Assembly: GCA_013203655.1 (NCBI GenBank)
Contig: JABMPN010000062.1
Span: 1-39,903 of the forward strand
From: Cyanobacteria bacterium bin.51
GTDB taxonomy: Bacteria; Cyanobacteriota; Cyanobacteriia; PCC-6307; Cyanobiaceae
Length of the DNA: 39,903 nt
Direction of reading: 5' to 3'
The notes under the pieces are model-generated. The model was not told the origin of the DNA, did no database searches, and saw only the letters and a program-made list of their open reading frames with translations. Every line of letters begins with the position of its first letter. Position 1 is the first letter of the stretch. Of this stretch, positions 24,244 to 38,900 are shown piece after piece. The translations under genes were made by a program, and so were the position numbers.

Positions 24244-24619
24244 GGAAGGCTTCCATGGGCATCGGGCCGCAGCGACGTTTCCAGCCCGGAACTTCCAGCT
24301 CTCGCCCCCAGGCGGAAATTCTCAGGGGCCATGTCCCTCCCGGTCGGTAGACGATCAAGTAGCGGAAGTCGCACTCGGCGCAATCCACAGGCGAGGGCAC
24401 AGGCTCTCCCTGGCGCTGGCAGCGCAGGAACCCGGCCACCAAGCCTGCCGCCCCCAAGTCCATGGCGGCACTATCGGTTGAAGCGGCGGCCAGCCGCAGG
24501 GCCGCCGCCGCCGGATAGCCCCCTTCACCGAGATAGAGATGGAGCGGTGCCCAGTCTGGAAAGCCAAGAAAGGAGAAGACGGCACGGGTAGCCACGGCAG
24601 TGAACAAACGGTGAATCAC
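24179..24619 (-). CDS. Hypothetical protein
   Basis: 146 aa; MIHRLFTAVATRAVFSFLGFPDWAPLHLYLGEGG...VDCAECDFRYLIVYRPGGTWPLRISAWGRE; 65-nt convergent overlap with 24022..24243. Confidence 0.6.
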   Translation of the reverse strand: MIHRLFTAVATRAVFSFLGFPDWAPLHLYLGEGGYPAAAALRLAAASTDSAAMDLGAAGLVAGFLRCQRQGEPVPSPVDCAECDFRYLIVYRPGGTWPLRISAWGRELEVPGWKRRCGPMPMEAFLRRFHPCRPLQKQRTQEAWSA

Positions 24620-24645
24620 CCCGTCAGTGCCCCCTGCGTATCAAT

Positions 24646-25176
24646 TTGGTGCTTCCCTTCGCTCCTGTCCCGCTGGTGGTGGTCCGCCTGATGGCTGCAC
24701 TGCTCACGGCCTGTGCCGTGAGTGGATCGGTTCCTGCCGACCTCGGCAGCCTGCTTCGGGTGGGCCAGCCGATCGTTGAGGCCGATCGTGACCTGCGGGC
24801 CAAGGGCTGGAGTCCGGCGCCTGAGCGTCGACCCGATGCCCTCGACCGCGAGCGTGCTGGCAACGACCTGGCCAGCCTCAGCGCCTGCTCCGGTGGCGCC
24901 TGGGGCTATTGCCGCTACGACTACCGCCGCTACGGCCACGAAGACAGCCGCGATGGGCATGGTCCTGATGGGCATCGGCGCCAGAGCCAACTGGTTGTGA
25001 TTACCTCCACGGCTGGCCCTGAGCTGGACACCCGGCCAAAACAAACGACCCCGCCCCTGCTGCCAGAGGGCACGGCCATGGTGGTGCGATGGAGCGACGA
25101 AGGCCCCCAGGGAGGGCGCTGGGGGCTTTGCCAGCAGGCAGTAGATCAGCAGCTGCTGCCCTGCGAGGGACCCTGA
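24646..25176 (+). CDS. Hypothetical protein with signal-like N-terminus
   Basis: Hydrophobic N-terminus (FAPVPLVVVRLMAALLTACAVSGS), Arg/Asp/His-rich middle; start uncertain. Confidence 0.5.
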   Translation: MVLPFAPVPLVVVRLMAALLTACAVSGSVPADLGSLLRVGQPIVEADRDLRAKGWSPAPERRPDALDRERAGNDLASLSACSGGAWGYCRYDYRRYGHEDSRDGHGPDGHRRQSQLVVITSTAGPELDTRPKQTTPPLLPEGTAMVVRWSDEGPQGGRWGLCQQAVDQQLLPCEGP

Positions 25177-25238
25177 TCCAGTTGTCTCGTTGATCGAGAT
25201 GTCTCACCGATAACGTTGCTGTCTCTGCCCCGTACCGG

Positions 25239-25349
25239 ATGGATCTCAAGAACGACAAGCGACCACCCTGGTTGAACTGGCTCTTCCTGCTGATCTTTCT
25301 TTGGAGTAGCTGGCAATTGGCGGGGTTCTGGTTCCAGCAACTCGGCTGA
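25239..25349 (+). CDS. 36-aa single-TM, Trp-rich small membrane protein (not in ORF track)
   Basis: ATG at 25239 translates to MDLKNDKRPPWLNWLFLLIFLWSSWQLAGFWFQQLG then TGA at 25347. Confidence 0.55.
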   Translation: MDLKNDKRPPWLNWLFLLIFLWSSWQLAGFWFQQLG

Positions 25350-25722: not shown

Positions 25723-26664
25723 TCAGGGATAGGCGTTGGGAACGTAAAACTGCTCGTTCATCGGTGGACGCTGGTAGTCGCCCCCACTCTTGCGGGGCGG
25801 CAGCTCGATGGCCTCAGGGGTCATGTCTTCATAGGGGACCTTGCTGAGCAGGTGGCGAATGCAGTTGAGGCGTGCGCGACGCTTGTCATCAGCTTCAACG
25901 GTGAACCAAGGAGCTTCGGGAATGTTGGTGTGGGCAAACATCTGGTCCTTGGCTTTGGAGAATTCCAGCCAGCGATCCCTCGACTCAAGATCCATCGGGC
26001 TCAACTTCCAGCGGCGGGCTGGGTCGTCAATCCGCGATTGAAAACGCAGTTCCTGCTCTTCATCACTGACAGAGAACCAGTATTTGAGAAGAACGATGCC
26101 TGAATCGACCAGCATTCTCTCGAATTCCGGACAGGATTTCATGAATTGTTCAACCTGCTCTTCTGTGCAGAATCCCATCACCCGCTCAACGCCAGCACGG
26201 TTGTACCAGCTTCGATCGAAGAGAACCATTTCACCGGCTGAGAGGAAATTCTCAACGTAGCGCTGAAAATACCATTATGTCTTCTGCTGATCCGATGGAG
26301 TGCCAAGGGCAACAACTTTGCAGCCCCGGGGGTTCATCGGTTCGGTGATCCGTTTGATCGTGCCCCCTTTCCCGGCCGCATCGCGGCCCTCGAACAGCAG
26401 GATCATGCGAAAGCCGGTGTGCTTGATCCAGTACTGCATCTTCACCAACTCGACTTGGAGACGCTCAAGTTCTTTCTCATAGAACTTCTTGGAGAGTTTC
26501 TCCTGTCGGCCGTTTGATGGTCCTTCCTCGATATCATCCAGCAGGGCCGAAGGGTGATAACGGTCGTTGAGAACAAGGCCGGCCAGCGCTGCAGCGGTGC
26601 TGGACGGCTCGGCGGATCCCCCCTTCTTTCCCTTGGACTTTTTGTGGTGTTTGCCCTTACCCAT
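25723..26664 (-). pseudogene. ppk2: Polyphosphate kinase 2 (PPK2) interrupted by in-frame TAA
   Basis: ORFs 26275..26730 and 25723..26229 are in the same frame and join as ...GRDAAGKGGTIKRITEPMNPRGCKVVALGTPSDQQKT[TAA]WYFQRYVENFLSAGEMVLFDRSWYNRAGVERVMGF... Stop at 26275-26277. MGKGKHH start at 26664. Confidence 0.88.
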
Positions 26665-26683
26665 CGAATCAGTCCTGATTGGT

Positions 26684-28189
26684 TCAGTTTGGCCCACCTT
26701 TAAGCGGCCTCTTGGTCCTTGACGGCTCAATTGATACCGATTTCAAGCCTCCTGGCGCTTTGCCGTCGGCGGGCAGGTCGATCGAGTGGCCGGTGAGGCT
26801 GACGCAAAAGCCCTGCTCCGCGCTGCCGCTTGGCCTTGGACCCTGGGGCGGCTCAAGGGAGCCTTCAGGGGAATGGTTGGCGATAGGTTCAGCAAAAGGT
26901 TCAGGCCCGCCCGGCAAGGCGCCGAACCCCAGCTTCAGCTCGTCGCCATGGGCGCGGGCCACCCGTTGGGCGATCGCCAGACCCAATCCACAGTGACCAT
27001 GGCCGCCACGGGCCACGTCAAGGCGCTGAAAAGGCATCAGAGCCTGGGAACGCTGGTCTTCGGCGATACCGGGCCCCCTGTCCCAGATCTGCAACTCGAA
27101 GCCATCCTTCTGCCAGGGGAGCAGGCGCAGAAGCACCGGCGGTTGGCCATAGCTGAGAGCATTGTCGACGAGATTGGCGACGGCCCGGCCCAGGGCAATG
27201 GGCTGAATCGAGGCCGTAACGGCGGCCAGATCCAGGTCGAGGGGCTGGCCGTCGTAGCGGGCCGCCAACTCGGCGATGACTTCGTGCAGGGGAACCTCCA
27301 CGGCCGGCTCGCTGCTGCCGCCACCGGCAAACAACAGGAACTGGCCGGTGATGCGCTCAAGATCATCCAGGTCTGCTTCCGCCTTGCCACGCCCCTCGGC
27401 CGTCAGTCCTGCCGCCGGCAGCAAAGACAGCCGCAAACGCAGGCGTGTCAGGGGCGTCTTGATGTCGTGGGCAATGCCGGCCAGCATCGTGGCTCGCTCC
27501 TGCTCACTGTTGGAGAGGCGCTCGAGCATGGCATTGAAGTGGCGAGCCAGGCGCCGCACCTCCGGAGCCCCACGCTGGGGCAGGGGGTTGGGCTCGCGGA
27601 CCAGGCCGACGCGGCCGAGGGCTTGCTGGAGTTGCCGCAGCGGCCTTTGCACCTCCAGCAAAAGGAACAGGGCGCCGGCCACGACGCTGCCGCTGATCAG
27701 CGAAAGGGTGGCGAGCAATGGGTCGGGCGGCCAGCCCAGCTGGGGCCGGATTCCTGCGTAGAGCCAGACCGGCTCCAGCGGCGAAGCCAGTTCGATCCAG
27801 ACGCCCCGGGCCGAGCCGTGGGTGGGAACGACCTGGGGGCAGCGCGGCAAGCGGCGACAGAGTTCGAGCTTCAGTTGCGCCGCCTGCCGGTTGAGGGTGT
27901 TGTCGGAGTTGCGGCCGAGAAAGCCGCGTTGTTGGTCTGCAGCTGGTGGGGTGCCCACCCCCAGCTGCAGACCACTGAGCTGGGAGACGGCAGCGGGCGG
28001 AAAGCGTTCCAGGGCCAGTTCGGAGAGGCGCAGGTTGAGGGCCACCTGGGGGCCCATCTGTGCCACTTGGGCCTGGCCGATCCGGGCCCCCAGCAGGGCT
28101 TGGAGCACCACGAGACTGAAAGCCCAGCCAGCCAGAAAAAACACCCTCAATCGCAGCCACAGGGCCACAGGGCGAAAGGAGGACGCCAT
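26684..28189 (-). CDS. Sensor histidine kinase (EnvZ-like)
   Basis: Two TMs, HAMP-like region, H-box MLAGIAHDIKTPLTRLRLRL, N-box LGRAVANLVDNALSYG, G-boxes IWDRGPGIAED and GHCGLGLAIAQRVARAHG. Confidence 0.95.
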   Translation of the reverse strand: MASSFRPVALWLRLRVFFLAGWAFSLVVLQALLGARIGQAQVAQMGPQVALNLRLSELALERFPPAAVSQLSGLQLGVGTPPAADQQRGFLGRNSDNTLNRQAAQLKLELCRRLPRCPQVVPTHGSARGVWIELASPLEPVWLYAGIRPQLGWPPDPLLATLSLISGSVVAGALFLLLEVQRPLRQLQQALGRVGLVREPNPLPQRGAPEVRRLARHFNAMLERLSNSEQERATMLAGIAHDIKTPLTRLRLRLSLLPAAGLTAEGRGKAEADLDDLERITGQFLLFAGGGSSEPAVEVPLHEVIAELAARYDGQPLDLDLAAVTASIQPIALGRAVANLVDNALSYGQPPVLLRLLPWQKDGFELQIWDRGPGIAEDQRSQALMPFQRLDVARGGHGHCGLGLAIAQRVARAHGDELKLGFGALPGGPEPFAEPIANHSPEGSLEPPQGPRPSGSAEQGFCVSLTGHSIDLPADGKAPGGLKSVSIEPSRTKRPLKGGPN

Positions 28190-32346: not shown

Positions 32347-32559
32347 CTAGTCCTGGTTGTCCTGCCAGGCCAGGACCCGATCGAGTTGCTCCAGGCTGAT
32401 CAGACCGAAACGCCAGAGAATCACCGGCAAGGGCGCTTGCTCCAGTTGGGCCTGCTTCACGCCCAGATCCAAGGCATTTTCGCTGAGACCAAGCTCACGC
32501 CGCAAATAGCGCACCAGGGCCGAGGGCGGGGGCAATTGCGGTGTGGTGCTGATCACCAT
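32347..32559 (-). CDS. DUF2949-like small protein
   Basis: 70 aa, LVRYLRRELGLSENALDLGVKQAQLEQAPLPVILWRFGLISLEQLDRVLAWQ. Family call from memory. Confidence 0.75.
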   Translation of the reverse strand: MVISTTPQLPPPSALVRYLRRELGLSENALDLGVKQAQLEQAPLPVILWRFGLISLEQLDRVLAWQDNQD

Positions 32560-32584
32560 GACGCAATCGCCAGAGGAAGTGTCT

Positions 32585-33757
32585 TCACTCTGACCAGGGA
32601 GCGGTCAGCTGGCAAGGCCCCAGGGTCATCGCCTTCAAGCTCAACCTTCGCAGCGGCGCCCCGCCGCCCAGCAAGCCCAGAATCAGGCGCCGCAATCCCA
32701 GCAGCAACGGCTGGCGGTTGGAGAACAAGCGCACCAGCAGGTCGGTGGCCAGCAGGGTGAGCAGCACATCCCCCCAGCGGTTCCAGGCATAGGACCGGCC
32801 GATGGCAGCAACCGCCAGCCGGCCGCGGGCGGCCCGTTCCGCCTGCTTCTGCAGGGCGCGCACATCCCGCCAGCAGAGGTTGAGCCCCTGGCCGCCAACG
32901 GGATGGCAGCGGTGCAGGGTCTCTCCAAGCAGCACGGTGTTGCCACGGTGGCAGCGATGGGCCATCCCCAGGGCTACCGGAAAGGCGCGCGGGGTATCGA
33001 GCAGGGCCTCGACCTGCAGGCCATCAGGGAGCACTCCGGCGAGCTGGTCGAGGAAGGCCACCGGATCCAGGCTCTCCAGGGCACGCAGCCGCTGGGCCGG
33101 TGCACTCCAGACCAGTTGAAAGTGATCACCACCCAGCGGCAACACCGCGAACGGTCCCTGGGCGCGGAACAGCTCCCAGGCCTGATCCGGTGCTGAGCCG
33201 CGCAGGCGCACCTGGACGCTCAGGCAGGCCTGCCTGTAGGGCAGCCGCCAGCTGCCGATGCCGAGGCTTGAGCGGTTGGGCGAATCGCTGCCGTCGGCGG
33301 CCACGACTAGATCGGCCGTCTGCTCAGAACCCTCGCTGCTGACAGTCCCTCCCAGGGCCAGCCGTACGCAGGGGTTGGATTCGAGCCGCTCCAGGAGAAG
33401 CTCCATCAAGGGCCGGTGCTGCAGCACCCAGCCCACGGAGTTAGCGGCCGGCGAATGCCGGGCAGCAGGCCCGAGATCGGCACTGCTGAACGGCACTCGC
33501 CCGCCTACCTCGAGATCGCAGAGCTGGAGCGATCGGAACGGAGCCAGGTCAGGGGTGAGTTCCTGCCAGAGGCCCAGGCGCTGGAGCAGTAGACGACTGG
33601 AGTGGGACAGGGCGTAAGCCCGCTGGCGCCGCAGCAACTGCACCGCTGAGAGTGGATCCTCCAGGTGCACCTGCCAGCCCACCTCAGCGAGGGCAAGGGC
33701 TGCAAGGGCACCGGTGGGACCGGCTCCAAGCACCTGAGCCAGCAGTGGAGCGCCCAT
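32585..33757 (-). CDS. FAD-dependent monooxygenase, UbiH/COQ6-like
   Basis: VLGAGPTGALAALALAEVGW, LVVAADGSDSPNRSSLG, VLLGETLHRCHPVGGQGLNLCWRD. Confidence 0.9.
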   Translation of the reverse strand: MGAPLLAQVLGAGPTGALAALALAEVGWQVHLEDPLSAVQLLRRQRAYALSHSSRLLLQRLGLWQELTPDLAPFRSLQLCDLEVGGRVPFSSADLGPAARHSPAANSVGWVLQHRPLMELLLERLESNPCVRLALGGTVSSEGSEQTADLVVAADGSDSPNRSSLGIGSWRLPYRQACLSVQVRLRGSAPDQAWELFRAQGPFAVLPLGGDHFQLVWSAPAQRLRALESLDPVAFLDQLAGVLPDGLQVEALLDTPRAFPVALGMAHRCHRGNTVLLGETLHRCHPVGGQGLNLCWRDVRALQKQAERAARGRLAVAAIGRSYAWNRWGDVLLTLLATDLLVRLFSNRQPLLLGLRRLILGLLGGGAPLRRLSLKAMTLGPCQLTAPWSE

Positions 33758-33760
33758 CAG

Positions 33761-34141
33761 TCAGCCTGCGGGGCTTGCGGATACCCCATAAAAAAGCCGC
33801 AACAGAATTCTGTTGCGGCTTTTGAGTTGGAGTGGATCGAGCGGTGATGAAGCAGGTCGGGAAAACCGTCCGATTCGGCCGATCCCGAGCAGACCACGGG
33901 TGAAGGCTTCGCCACCGAGGGCGAATTCGGTTGCCAGCAGGGCGATGAAGCCGAGCATGGCCATGCGGCCGTTGAGCTTTTCGGCGCGCTCATGGAAGCC
34001 CCAGCCACCCTCGGGTGCCACCACTTCCATGCGGGGCTCGGTGGCGAAGGCATTGAGGCGACCGCCATCTTCCATGGTGACGGTGGCGCCACGGATCGGA
34101 GCGCGGTCGGTGGTCGGAGCGATGGAAGTGACTTGGCTCAT
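33761..34141 (-). CDS. High-light-inducible protein (HLIP / CAB-like) with unusual C-terminal extension
   Basis: Core GWGFHERAEKLNGRMAMLGFIALLATEFALGGEAFTRGLLGIG matches the HLIP ExxNGRxAMxGF motif. ATG at 34141 (MSQVTS). Tail of about 37 residues continues to 33761. Confidence 0.88.
   Translation of the reverse strand: MSQVTSIAPTTDRAPIRGATVTMEDGGRLNAFATEPRMEVVAPEGGWGFHERAEKLNGRMAMLGFIALLATEFALGGEAFTRGLLGIGRIGRFSRPASSPLDPLQLKSRNRILLRLFYGVSASPAG
33792..33823. terminator. Perfect-palindrome bidirectional intrinsic terminator
   Basis: AAAAGCCGCAACAGAATTCTGTTGCGGCTTTT: 16-bp perfect arms, GC-rich stem base flanked by A/T runs on both strands. Confidence 0.88.
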
Positions 34142-34164
34142 GGTGCCCTCGTTGGTATGGCGTA

Positions 34165-34182
34165 ATTGTAACACATTATTTC
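34165..34182 (-). promoter_or_regulatory. Possible HLR1-like (RpaB) element upstream of the HLIP gene
   Basis: Minus strand GAAATAAT-GT-GTTACAAT: one perfect (G/T)TTACA(A/T)(A/T) half and one degenerate half separated by 2 nt. Confidence 0.35.
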
Positions 34183-34208
34183 GCTTCGTAACGGAAGTAA
34201 TGAAAGTG

Positions 34209-34853
34209 TCAGCGCAGGCGTCGCAGACAGAGCTCTTCAAACGCCGGTCGCAGCAGAAACGGATACTCCCCGACCCAGAGCTTCAGGCCAGGAATCCAGG
34301 CGTCGCTGAGGGCGCCGATCCGTGAGAAGTCGGGCCGTTCACTCAGCACCAGGCAGCGGATCGCCATCCCCTTGCGGATCGACTTGTGTTTCTTGTCCAT
34401 CGGGAAACGCACCTGGCCCAGGTAGCCCTCCTCGTCTTCGAGCTGGAGGCAGAGCCAGGTGCGGCGGTTCTCCACCAGCTCCAGCCGGCCCCGCCCATCG
34501 GCCTGCTCCTTGCGCTCCTCGATCCGCTCACGCGTGAACAGGTCGGCCACCACCCCTTCGAAGATCGCCCCTGCCTTGTAGCGGCGCAGGGTGGCGTTGC
34601 GGCGGCCCGCCTCAACGATCGGCCCCCAGAGGATGTAGAGCAAAAACACGAAGCCGCAGATCAACCAGATCGGGCCGAAGCGCATCGCCAACCGGCTCTG
34701 GGCGATCAGCAGCGACAGCACCCCGCCGATCACGGAGATCAGCACCCGCTGCAGGATCTTGCGGGGATCACCACTGCAGGCGCTGAACTGGGGCCCGGTG
34801 GCCACCGCCGGGATCAGGCGCTGCAGCTCGCCGGCTTTGAGCGGAATTATCAT
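34209..34853 (-). CDS. Conserved-looking membrane protein of unknown function
   Basis: 214 aa with a TM pair (ISVIGGVLSLLIAQS; FGPIWLICGFVFLLYILWGPIVEAGRRNATLRRYKAGAIFEG). Confidence 0.8.
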   Translation of the reverse strand: MIIPLKAGELQRLIPAVATGPQFSACSGDPRKILQRVLISVIGGVLSLLIAQSRLAMRFGPIWLICGFVFLLYILWGPIVEAGRRNATLRRYKAGAIFEGVVADLFTRERIEERKEQADGRGRLELVENRRTWLCLQLEDEEGYLGQVRFPMDKKHKSIRKGMAIRCLVLSERPDFSRIGALSDAWIPGLKLWVGEYPFLLRPAFEELCLRRLR

Positions 34854-34857
34854 GGCG

Positions 34858-35745
34858 TCAGAGCAGACGTTCGAGTCCGTACACCAGGCCGTTGAGCTGG
34901 CGCACCCGCCGCACGGTCAGCAGCACCCCCGGCATGTAGGCGGAGCGCTCGATCGTGTCGTGGCGCAGTAGATAGGTTTCACCGGCGGCGCCGAACATCA
35001 CTTCCTGATGGGCCACCAGGCCCGGCAGCCGGATCGAGTGCAAGCGCAGGCCGCTCTCCCGCTGCCCGCCGCGGCAGCCCACCAGCGTTTCGTGCTCCTC
35101 CACCTGGGGGGCATTGAAGCTCTTGCCAAGCTCCTCGATCAACTCAGCGGTCTTGAGGCAGGTGCCGCTGGGGGCGTCGGCCTTGCGGTTGTGATGCAGC
35201 TCGGTGAGTTCGGCGAAGTCGTAGAAACGGGCGGCGGCGGCGGCAGCCTGCTGGAGCAGCACCATGCCGACGGAAAAATTCGGAATGATGGCGGCGCCGA
35301 TCCCGGCCTTCTCGGCAAAACCGGCGAGATCCGCCAGCTGCTTCGGGCCCAGACCGGTGGTGCCGATCACCGGGTGCACCCCGTAGGCGATCGCGGCACG
35401 GGTGTGCTCATACACAACCCTTGGATGGGTGAAATCCACCAGCACCGCCCCGGCGGGCTGCTGGCGAACGGCCTGGCTGGCCTGACAGAGCGTCCCTTCC
35501 AGGTCGGCGCTGATCGCCACCTCCAGCTCACCCAGGCCCAGTTCCAAACCCACATCGGCCCCTTCCTTGCCGAGGGTGGTGTCGATCGCGCCGACCAGCT
35601 GGCAGTCGGGGGCTGCGGTCACCGCTTTGACCACTTCAGCCCCCATCCGGCCCAGGGCTCCAGCCACCACCACGGCGATCGGCACCACGGCGGACGAACC
35701 GAGCTGGCTTGCAGGGGGATCGGACGGCCCGTTGGCGGCAGTCAT
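34858..35745 (-). CDS. dapB: 4-hydroxy-tetrahydrodipicolinate reductase
   Basis: [71 protein letters not shown] at 35745. Confidence 0.95.
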
Positions 35746-35905
35746 CAAGGGCTTGGAGCGGCACGAATTCGCTGAGCCTATGGCCGATCGCACCGGCAGA
35801 GGGCCAGCAAGGCCGGGCAAGACCTGTTACGCCTTGGCTTCAGAAGCCTCGCCCCAACAGCAGAGTCCGTAAGCTTCTTCACATTGCTCAATCACCACGG
35901 CGCCG

Positions 35906-38900
35906 ATGTTCACGCAGGTCCGCTCCGCCAGTCGCCGTGTTCGCCCTGACGATCAGCATGGCCCCGCCGGCAGCGAGGGTCGGGCGGTGATGCGGGCGGT
36001 GTACGTGGTGCTCGAGCCCCAGTACCAGAACGCCCTCACCCAGGCGGCCAACAGCCTCAACGAGCAGAACAGTGCCCTGGCCGTCGATCTGAGCGGCTAC
36101 CTGATCGAGGAGCTGCGTGACCCGGAGAACTACGCCGCCTTCTGCGCCGATGTGGCCGAAGCCGATGTGTTCATCGCCTCGCTGATCTTCATCGAAGACC
36201 TGGCTCAGAAGGTGGTGGAGGCGGTGGCCCCCCACCGCGATCGGCTCAAGGCTGCGGTTGTCTTCCCCTCCATGCCGGAGGTGATGCGTCTCAACAAGCT
36301 CGGCACCTTCTCAATGGCCCAGCTGGGCCAGAGCAAGAGCGCCATCGCCAGCTTCATGAAGAAGCGCAAGGAGGCCAATGGCGCCGGCTTCCAGGACGCG
36401 ATGCTCAAACTGCTCAACACCCTGCCCACGGTTCTCAAATATCTGCCAGTGGAGAAGGCGCAGGATGCCCGCTCCTTCATGCTCAGCTTTCAGTATTGGC
36501 TGGGGGGAACGCCGGACAACCTGCGCAACTTCCTGTTGATGCTGGCTGATAAATATGTGTTTCCCAGGGGCGACAGCGGCCGGCCGGCGCTTGAGGTGGC
36601 CGAACCGGTGGTGTTCCCGGATCTGGGCCTCTGGCACCCCCTGGCGCCGGGGATGTTCGAAGACCTCAAGGAATATCTGAACTGGAACGCCAGCCGAGTC
36701 GACCTGAGCGCGAAGGCCAAGGCCGGCCCGGTGATCGGCCTGGTGCTGCAACGCAGCCACATCGTCACCGGCGATGAGGCCCACTACGTGGCGGTGATCC
36801 AGGAACTGGAATACCGCGGCGCCACCGTGATTCCGGTGTTCTGCGGCGGGCTCGATTTCTCCAAGCCCGTCAAGGCCTTCTTCTACGACCCGCTCGATCC
36901 CGACCAGCCGATCGTGGATGGGGTGGTGAGCCTCACCGGCTTCGCCCTGATCGGCGGCCCGGCCCGCCAGGACCATCCGCGTGCCATCGAAGCGCTCTCA
37001 AAACTCAACCGGCCTTACATGGTGGCCCTGCCGCTGGTGTTCCAGACCACCCAGGAGTGGGAGGAGAGCGACCTGGGTCTGCACCCGGTCCAGGTGGCCC
37101 TGCAGATCGCCATCCCCGAACTCGATGGCGCCATCGAGCCGATCGTGCTGTCGGGGCGCGATGACGCCACCGGCAAGGCCCACACCCTCCAGGACCGGGT
37201 CGAAGCGATCGCCGAGCGGGTGATTCGCTGGGCCTCCCTGCGCACCAAGCCTCGTCTCGAGAAGAAGCTGGCGATCACGGTGTTCAGCTTCCCTCCCGAC
37301 AAGGGGAATGTAGGCACCGCCGCCTACCTCGATGTCTTCGGCTCGATCCACCGCGTGCTCGAGGAGATGAAGCGCGAGGGCTATGACGTCCAGAACCTGC
37401 CCCAGGATTCCAAGGCGCTGATGGAAGCGGTGATCAATGATCCTGAGGCCCTCCAGGGCGCACCGGAACTGGCGATCGCCCACCGCATGAGCGTGGAGGA
37501 GTACGAGCGGCTCACCCCCTATTCCGAGCGGCTGGAGGAGAACTGGGGCAAGCCCCCCGGCAACCTCAACTCCGACGGCACCAACCTGCTGATCTACGGC
37601 CGCCACTTCGGCAATATTTTTGTGGGCGTGCAGCCCACCTTCGGCTACGAGGGCGATCCGATGCGGCTGCTCTATTCGCGCAGCGCCAGCCCCCACCACG
37701 GCTTCGCCGCTTATTACACCTACCTGGAGAAGGTCTGGGGCGCCGATGCGGTGCTGCATTTCGGCACCCACGGCTCGCTGGAGTTCATGCCCGGCAAGCA
37801 GATGGGCATGAGCGAAACCTGCTACCCGGATTCGCTGATCGGCGCCCTGCCGAACCTCTATTACTACGCCGCCAACAACCCTTCAGAAGCCACGATCGCC
37901 AAGCGGCGGGGCTACGCCGCCACGATCAGCTACCTCACCCCACCGGCCGAGAATGCCGGGCTCTACAGGGGGCTGAAGGAACTGGGCGAACTGGTGGGCT
38001 CCTACCAGCAGCTGCGCGAGAGCTCCAGGGGTGTGCAGATCGTCAACGCGATCGTCGAAACGGCCCGCCAGTGCAACCTCGATAAAGACGTGACCCTGCC
38101 GGAGGGTGAGGCCTCCGAACTGGATCTGGAGGGCCGCGATTCGGTGGTGGGCGCGGTCTACCGCCAGCTGATGGAGATCGAAAGCCGGCTGCTGCCCTGC
38201 GGTCTGCACACAATCGGCAAACCTCCCACCGCCGAGGAGGCGATCGCCACCCTGGTGAGTATCGCCGCCCTTGAGCGTGAAGAGGAGGGTTACCGCAGCC
38301 TGCCGGGCCTGATCGCCGAAAGCCTCGGCCGCACGATTGATGACATCTACCGCGGCAATGACGCGGGGGTGCTGGCCGATGTGGAGCTCAACCAGACGAT
38401 CACCGAGGCCTGTCGCGCCGCGGTGGGCTCGATGGTGCGCGCCGTGACGGGCAGCGATGGCCGGGTCGATCTCAAGGGTCGCTTCGGCTGGTTCTTCGCC
38501 CTGTTGGAGCGCTTCGGCTATGAGCGCCCCAACCCCTGGCTGAGTTCCTGCCGGTCTTCGGGCTTTGCGGGCGTTGATCCACTTGAACTCGACAAGCTGT
38601 TCGGCTACCTGCGCTTCTGCCTGGAGCAGATCTGTGCCGACATGGAGATGGCCAGCCTGCTGCGCGCCCTCGATGGCGAATATGTGATCCCAGGCCCAGG
38701 CGGCGATCCGATCCGCAACCCTGGCGTGCTGCCCAGCGGCAAGAACATCCACGCCCTCGACCCCCAGTCGATTCCCACCCGCGCCGCCATCGCCGCCGCC
38801 AAGGTGGTGGTGGACCGGCTGATCGAGCGCCAGAAGGCCGAGCAGGGCACCTGGCCCGAAACGATCGCCTGCGTGCTCTGGGGCACCGACAACATCAAGA

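Follow-up and report, generated by a model that had tools for sequence, protein, structure and literature searches.

Organization of the HLIP-UbiH locus

The window analyzed here, a 39,903-nucleotide stretch of Cyanobacteria bacterium bin.51 (contig JABMPN010000062.1 of assembly GCA_013203655.1), carries a gene for a high light-inducible protein (HLIP) followed by a gene of the UbiH/UbiF/VisC/COQ6 family of FAD-dependent hydroxylases; all features of this locus lie on the minus strand. The HLIP core comprises 88 amino acids (33878-34141), from an ATG at 34141 to a last glycine codon that ends at 33878, and its C-terminal sequence, ...GEAFTRGLLGIG, finishes with GLLGIG. At the next codon (33875-33877), where the HLIP sequences of relatives have TGA or TAA, the window has CGA. 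The frame stays open over the remaining 33764-33874 up to a new in-frame stop, TGA, at 33761-33763, giving a tail of 38 residues, RIGRFSRPASSPLDPLQLKSRNRILLRLFYGVSASPAG, the CGA codon included. Within this frame lies a predicted intrinsic terminator (33790-33823). Only the nucleotides CTG separate the new stop (33763-33761) from the ATG (33757-33755) of the UbiH-family gene, which encodes 390 amino acids (32585-33757). The layout described by the first-pass annotation, in which the HLIP core continues through CGA into an open frame that crosses a perfect palindrome and ends 3 nt short of the UbiH start codon, is present in every part. No promoter was predicted in a scan of 32500-36500, a result that carries little weight in a cyanobacterium.

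The upstream product is of the high light-inducible, single-helix, chlorophyll-binding type: it has a single LHC-type helix with the chlorophyll-binding ExxNGR motif (AEKLNGRMAMLGF), and its sequence matches in the PDB are to HliD and LHC proteins. A Pfam search of the protein returned no match at E ≤ 0.001, and an identity as Psb34 (NF033486) was rejected at 32.4 bits, below the cut-off of 45. The core shares 99% amino acid identity and about 93% DNA identity with its orthologue in the sister genome SynAce01, and 21 of the 24 substitutions between them fall on third codon positions; judged by this pattern, normal constraint acts on the HLIP core. The product of the downstream gene scores 230.9 bits against NCBIfam TIGR01988 (cut-off 224.65) and also matches Pfam FAD_binding_3.

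A conserved predicted terminator between HLIP and UbiH

Positions 33792-33823 form an exact palindrome, AAAAGCCGCAACAGAATTCTGTTGCGGCTTTT, of which the assembly has no second copy within 3 mismatches. It corresponds to a 14-bp hairpin made up of a 10-bp G+C-rich stem (GCCGCAACAG/CTGTTGCGGC), an AATT loop (AAUU in the RNA) and an A-U extension, and is followed by a six-U tract (TTTTTT, 33795-33790). The fold of this 45-nt RNA has an energy of -23.9 kcal/mol (z = -7.1), a value equalled by none of 200 shuffled sequences; the hairpin is far beyond chance. A terminator scan of this region of the window missed the hairpin, probably because the A-U pairing of the stem uses up part of the U-tract. In relatives, 6 of 11 stem pairs were changed on both sides; such two-sided changes amounted to 26 cells, compared with 4.5 in shuffles, and the signal was lost when the pairs were slid. 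The element thus combines a G+C-rich hairpin and a U-tract with a structure kept by compensatory change, and collectively these data demonstrate that a predicted intrinsic terminator is conserved between HLIP and UbiH.

The comparison drew on HLIP loci of 60 related genomes, with the best matches retained, and on 80 loci of the genome collection; the set of loci with distinct downstream sequence numbered 88, the window included. An adjacent UbiH gene was absent in 20 of them. Besides the window, 67 loci have HLIP followed by UbiH, and 54 of these carry a terminator by our criterion; among the 13 without a called terminator, this hairpin recurs in several but is followed by a weaker U-tract, and it is absent from a few (e.g. 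L012 and L101). Both the terminator and the adjacency of the two genes, as noted in the first-pass annotation, are accordingly features of the relatives as well. In the 54 terminator-bearing relatives the native HLIP stop stands 17-145 nt ahead of the stem, and for 74% of them this distance exceeds 27 nt. The UbiH start, as estimated from the alignment, lies merely 12-16 nt beyond the stem in 18 of the 54, so that a UbiH message must either traverse the hairpin from upstream or have its 5' end nearly at the initiation codon. We infer from this arrangement a partial terminator that would set UbiH expression below that of HLIP. A literature search on HLIP operon terminators found nothing.

The HLIP-terminator-UbiH unit is widespread in Synechococcus/Cyanobium, where examples include L003, L006, L057, L064, L074 and L078.

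Probable loss of the HLIP stop codon

In the close HLIP relatives that were read, TGA or TAA follows directly after GLLGIG or GLLGLG, the window being the sole exception. SynAce01 (G002/L032) reads GGC TGA where the window reads GGC CGA, a sense codon one change away from the stop of its orthologues. The first-pass annotation had suspected a stop-codon loss and had named the C-terminus and CGA/TGA codon of HLIP orthologues as the place to look; the comparison bears the suspicion out, and no relative read shares the extended tail. Because close relatives, SynAce01 included, keep TGA or TAA at this position, the data support a stop loss that appears private to this assembly.

Downstream of the core, the HLIP-tail stretch of the window differs from that of SynAce01 by indels of 10, 1 and 1 nt. 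The 10-nt indel is a tandem unit, GGCTGAAACG, which is duplicated in SynAce01 (L003/L032) just after the HLIP stop, where it repeats the stop codon region, and is present as a single copy in the window. Since these indels separate the two sequences, the tail frame is not common to SynAce01.

Properties of the extended reading frame

In 37 of the 54 relatives that have a detected terminator, reading on past the native stop meets no further stop codon up to the end of the hairpin, for which reason the open frame was rejected as a sign of function. Likewise, 27% of tail shuffles remain open, and an open frame through the hairpin is unremarkable and not beyond chance. The codon adaptation of the tail is 0.31, compared with 0.65 for HLIP, 0.60 for UbiH and 0.34 ± 0.06 for shuffled tails. 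Seven of the tail residues are basic and one is acidic (net charge +6), and the tail would face the lumenal side, provided that the topology matches that of other HLIPs. Codon use and the comparison with relatives together show a tail that is not conserved and bears no sign of selection as coding sequence. That the new stop falls 3 nt short of the UbiH start codon, an arrangement absent from the sister genome, we take as a product of chance.

A new C-terminal tail selected for a protein function of its own, to which the 38-codon open frame might point, would have to be reconciled with its absence from every relative read, with codon use equal to that of shuffles and with seven basic residues against one acidic on the lumenal side, given the topology of other HLIPs. 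It was rejected as the best reading on the first two of these grounds, and we find it scarcely credible.

The first-pass annotation had further proposed that HLIP translation controls transcription into UbiH. In such an attenuator, translation of HLIP would melt the hairpin and set UbiH transcription, and the stop 3 nt before the ATG would allow translational coupling. The geometry of the locus, with its frame through the hairpin and its closely placed new stop, fits this proposal, as do the conserved order HLIP-terminator-UbiH and the observation that E. coli intrinsic terminators can be suppressed by translating ribosomes (PMC4824070). However, the arrangement is not a conserved device because it was found in one assembly only: in each of the 54 relatives where a terminator was detected, the HLIP stop codon comes ahead of the stem, by 17-145 nt and in 74% by more than 27 nt. 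In addition, the tail appears unselected by codon use and its open frame fits chance. With the arrangement confined to one assembly and the tail without a coding signature, the proposal is unsupported, and we regard a functional attenuator at this locus as very unlikely.

Real allele or consensus error

The source assembly consists of 148 contigs and is 80.7% complete, with an estimated contamination of 2%. Among about 150 aligned stops checked in the window and in 20 other sampled contigs, one was lost; stop loss is therefore a rare event in this sample and no general trend. The contig sample also contained 20 nonsense cases, most of which we judged to be spurious because the gene filter lets in some antisense ORFs and over-long starts. 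Compared with SynAce01, the genes of the window are nearly free of frame breaks and their substitutions follow normal codon positions. A general base-level unreliability of the assembly found no support in the window or in the 20 further contigs sampled.

Two other places in the window also depart from SynAce01. A gene at 25723-26730 (minus strand), which we take from its sequence motifs alone to encode a PPK2-like polyphosphate kinase, has an in-frame TAA at 26275-26277 where SynAce01 has CAA. This codon sits between the motifs GRDAAGKGG and VLFDRSWYNR and involves two neighbouring substitutions (ACTCAA to ACATAA), which point to real divergence more than to one miscalled base; ppk2 is probably a pseudogene or an assembly problem. 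At 24616-25340 (minus strand), identity of a putative ORF with its SynAce01 counterpart drops to 82%, and there are gaps whose lengths are not divisible by three.

The CGA codon could also reflect a consensus or assembly error, the organism having TGA and the C being a miscalled or strain-mixed base. The codon was seen in a single fragmentary assembly with 2% estimated contamination, and the change of CAA to TAA in ppk2 (near 26275-26277) is a second stop-changing difference on the same contig. An error is harder to reconcile with window genes that are nearly without frame breaks and have normal codon-position substitutions, with the loss of merely one in about 150 sampled stops, and with the paired substitutions of ppk2. 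We consider it unlikely, at a level that nevertheless deserves weight.

Interpretation

Taken together, the locus is probably best explained by a private mutation, probably a recent one and seen in a single assembly, that turned the HLIP stop codon TGA into CGA in an otherwise ordinary HLIP-terminator-UbiH unit. We regard this stop loss as most likely accidental, with a neutral or mildly harmful effect; an HLIP paralogue of 78% identity, with its TGA intact, exists in the same genome (G000:C142) and may be why it is tolerated.

A spacing of about 55 nt separated the lost stop from the G+C-rich stem; the new stop follows the U-tract by 26 nt. Experiments in E. coli showed that an intrinsic terminator works at full efficiency if the stop codon precedes it by more than about 27-30 nt and loses nearly all activity when the stop is very near; with the stop shifted to 38 nt past the U-tract, which places the terminator late in the ORF, 40% of its efficiency remained (PMC4824070). 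In the ancestral state, a ribosome would have halted about 55 nt before the stem and left the terminator fully working, and residual readthrough probably supplied UbiH. If the base is real, ribosomes would now run into the hairpin. Those closely coupled to RNA polymerase would partly suppress termination, yielding an HLIP of 126 amino acids and more UbiH message; lagging ribosomes would allow termination and leave a nonstop HLIP mRNA for rescue by tmRNA. Partial suppression is plausible by analogy, and is expected because of the E. coli terminator-in-ORF experiments (PMC4824070); its size would depend on ribosome-polymerase coupling. The ribosomes of S. elongatus withdraw from the compacted nucleoid/DNA on a daily cycle (PMC13378304). 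The genome has a tmRNA gene (cyano_tmRNA, G000:C105), and a search of the 80.7% complete assembly did not find SmpB.

If real, the base thus places a terminator inside an ORF, and transcripts that still end at the U-tract would carry no stop codon, a consequence absent from the first-pass annotation. The locus would then be a natural counterpart of engineered terminator-in-ORF constructs, and could serve to gauge the closeness with which ribosomes trail RNA polymerase in picocyanobacteria. A stop loss fixed in the species might even have converted a constitutive partial terminator between HLIP and UbiH into a translation-controlled, arfA-like switch by one base change. Coupled ribosomes would then open the terminator and raise UbiH, and lagging ones would leave nonstop HLIP mRNA for tmRNA; we see this as a long shot. 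The more durable and more useful result is the conserved HLIP-terminator-UbiH unit: a conserved gene pair with a covarying terminator between its members suggests one shared transcript with different expression levels.

Comparison with known systems

In E. coli arfA, the ORF holds a stem-loop terminator/RNase III site and gives rise to nonstop mRNA (PMC10107115). As in arfA, the terminator hairpin of the HLIP gene lies within the reading frame and upstream of the stop, and terminated transcripts would be without a stop codon and are predicted tmRNA substrates. In arfA this layout is a regulated trait, whereas here it arises from the loss of a stop kept by relatives, known from sequence. The W38p construct of Li et al. 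(PMC4824070) likewise has its stop just past the U-tract (38 nt in W38p, 26 nt here), so that the hairpin is traversed late in the ORF. W38p, however, is a reporter built for E. coli around the tR2 terminator, with a measured 40% of control termination efficiency, whereas the suppression in the present case is predicted from the DNA sequence. A third comparison is with the ordinary HLIP-terminator-UbiH units found in SynAce01 and its relatives among Synechococcus/Cyanobium, which have the same genes in the same order and a hairpin of the same position and sequence family, but retain the HLIP stop codon before the hairpin.
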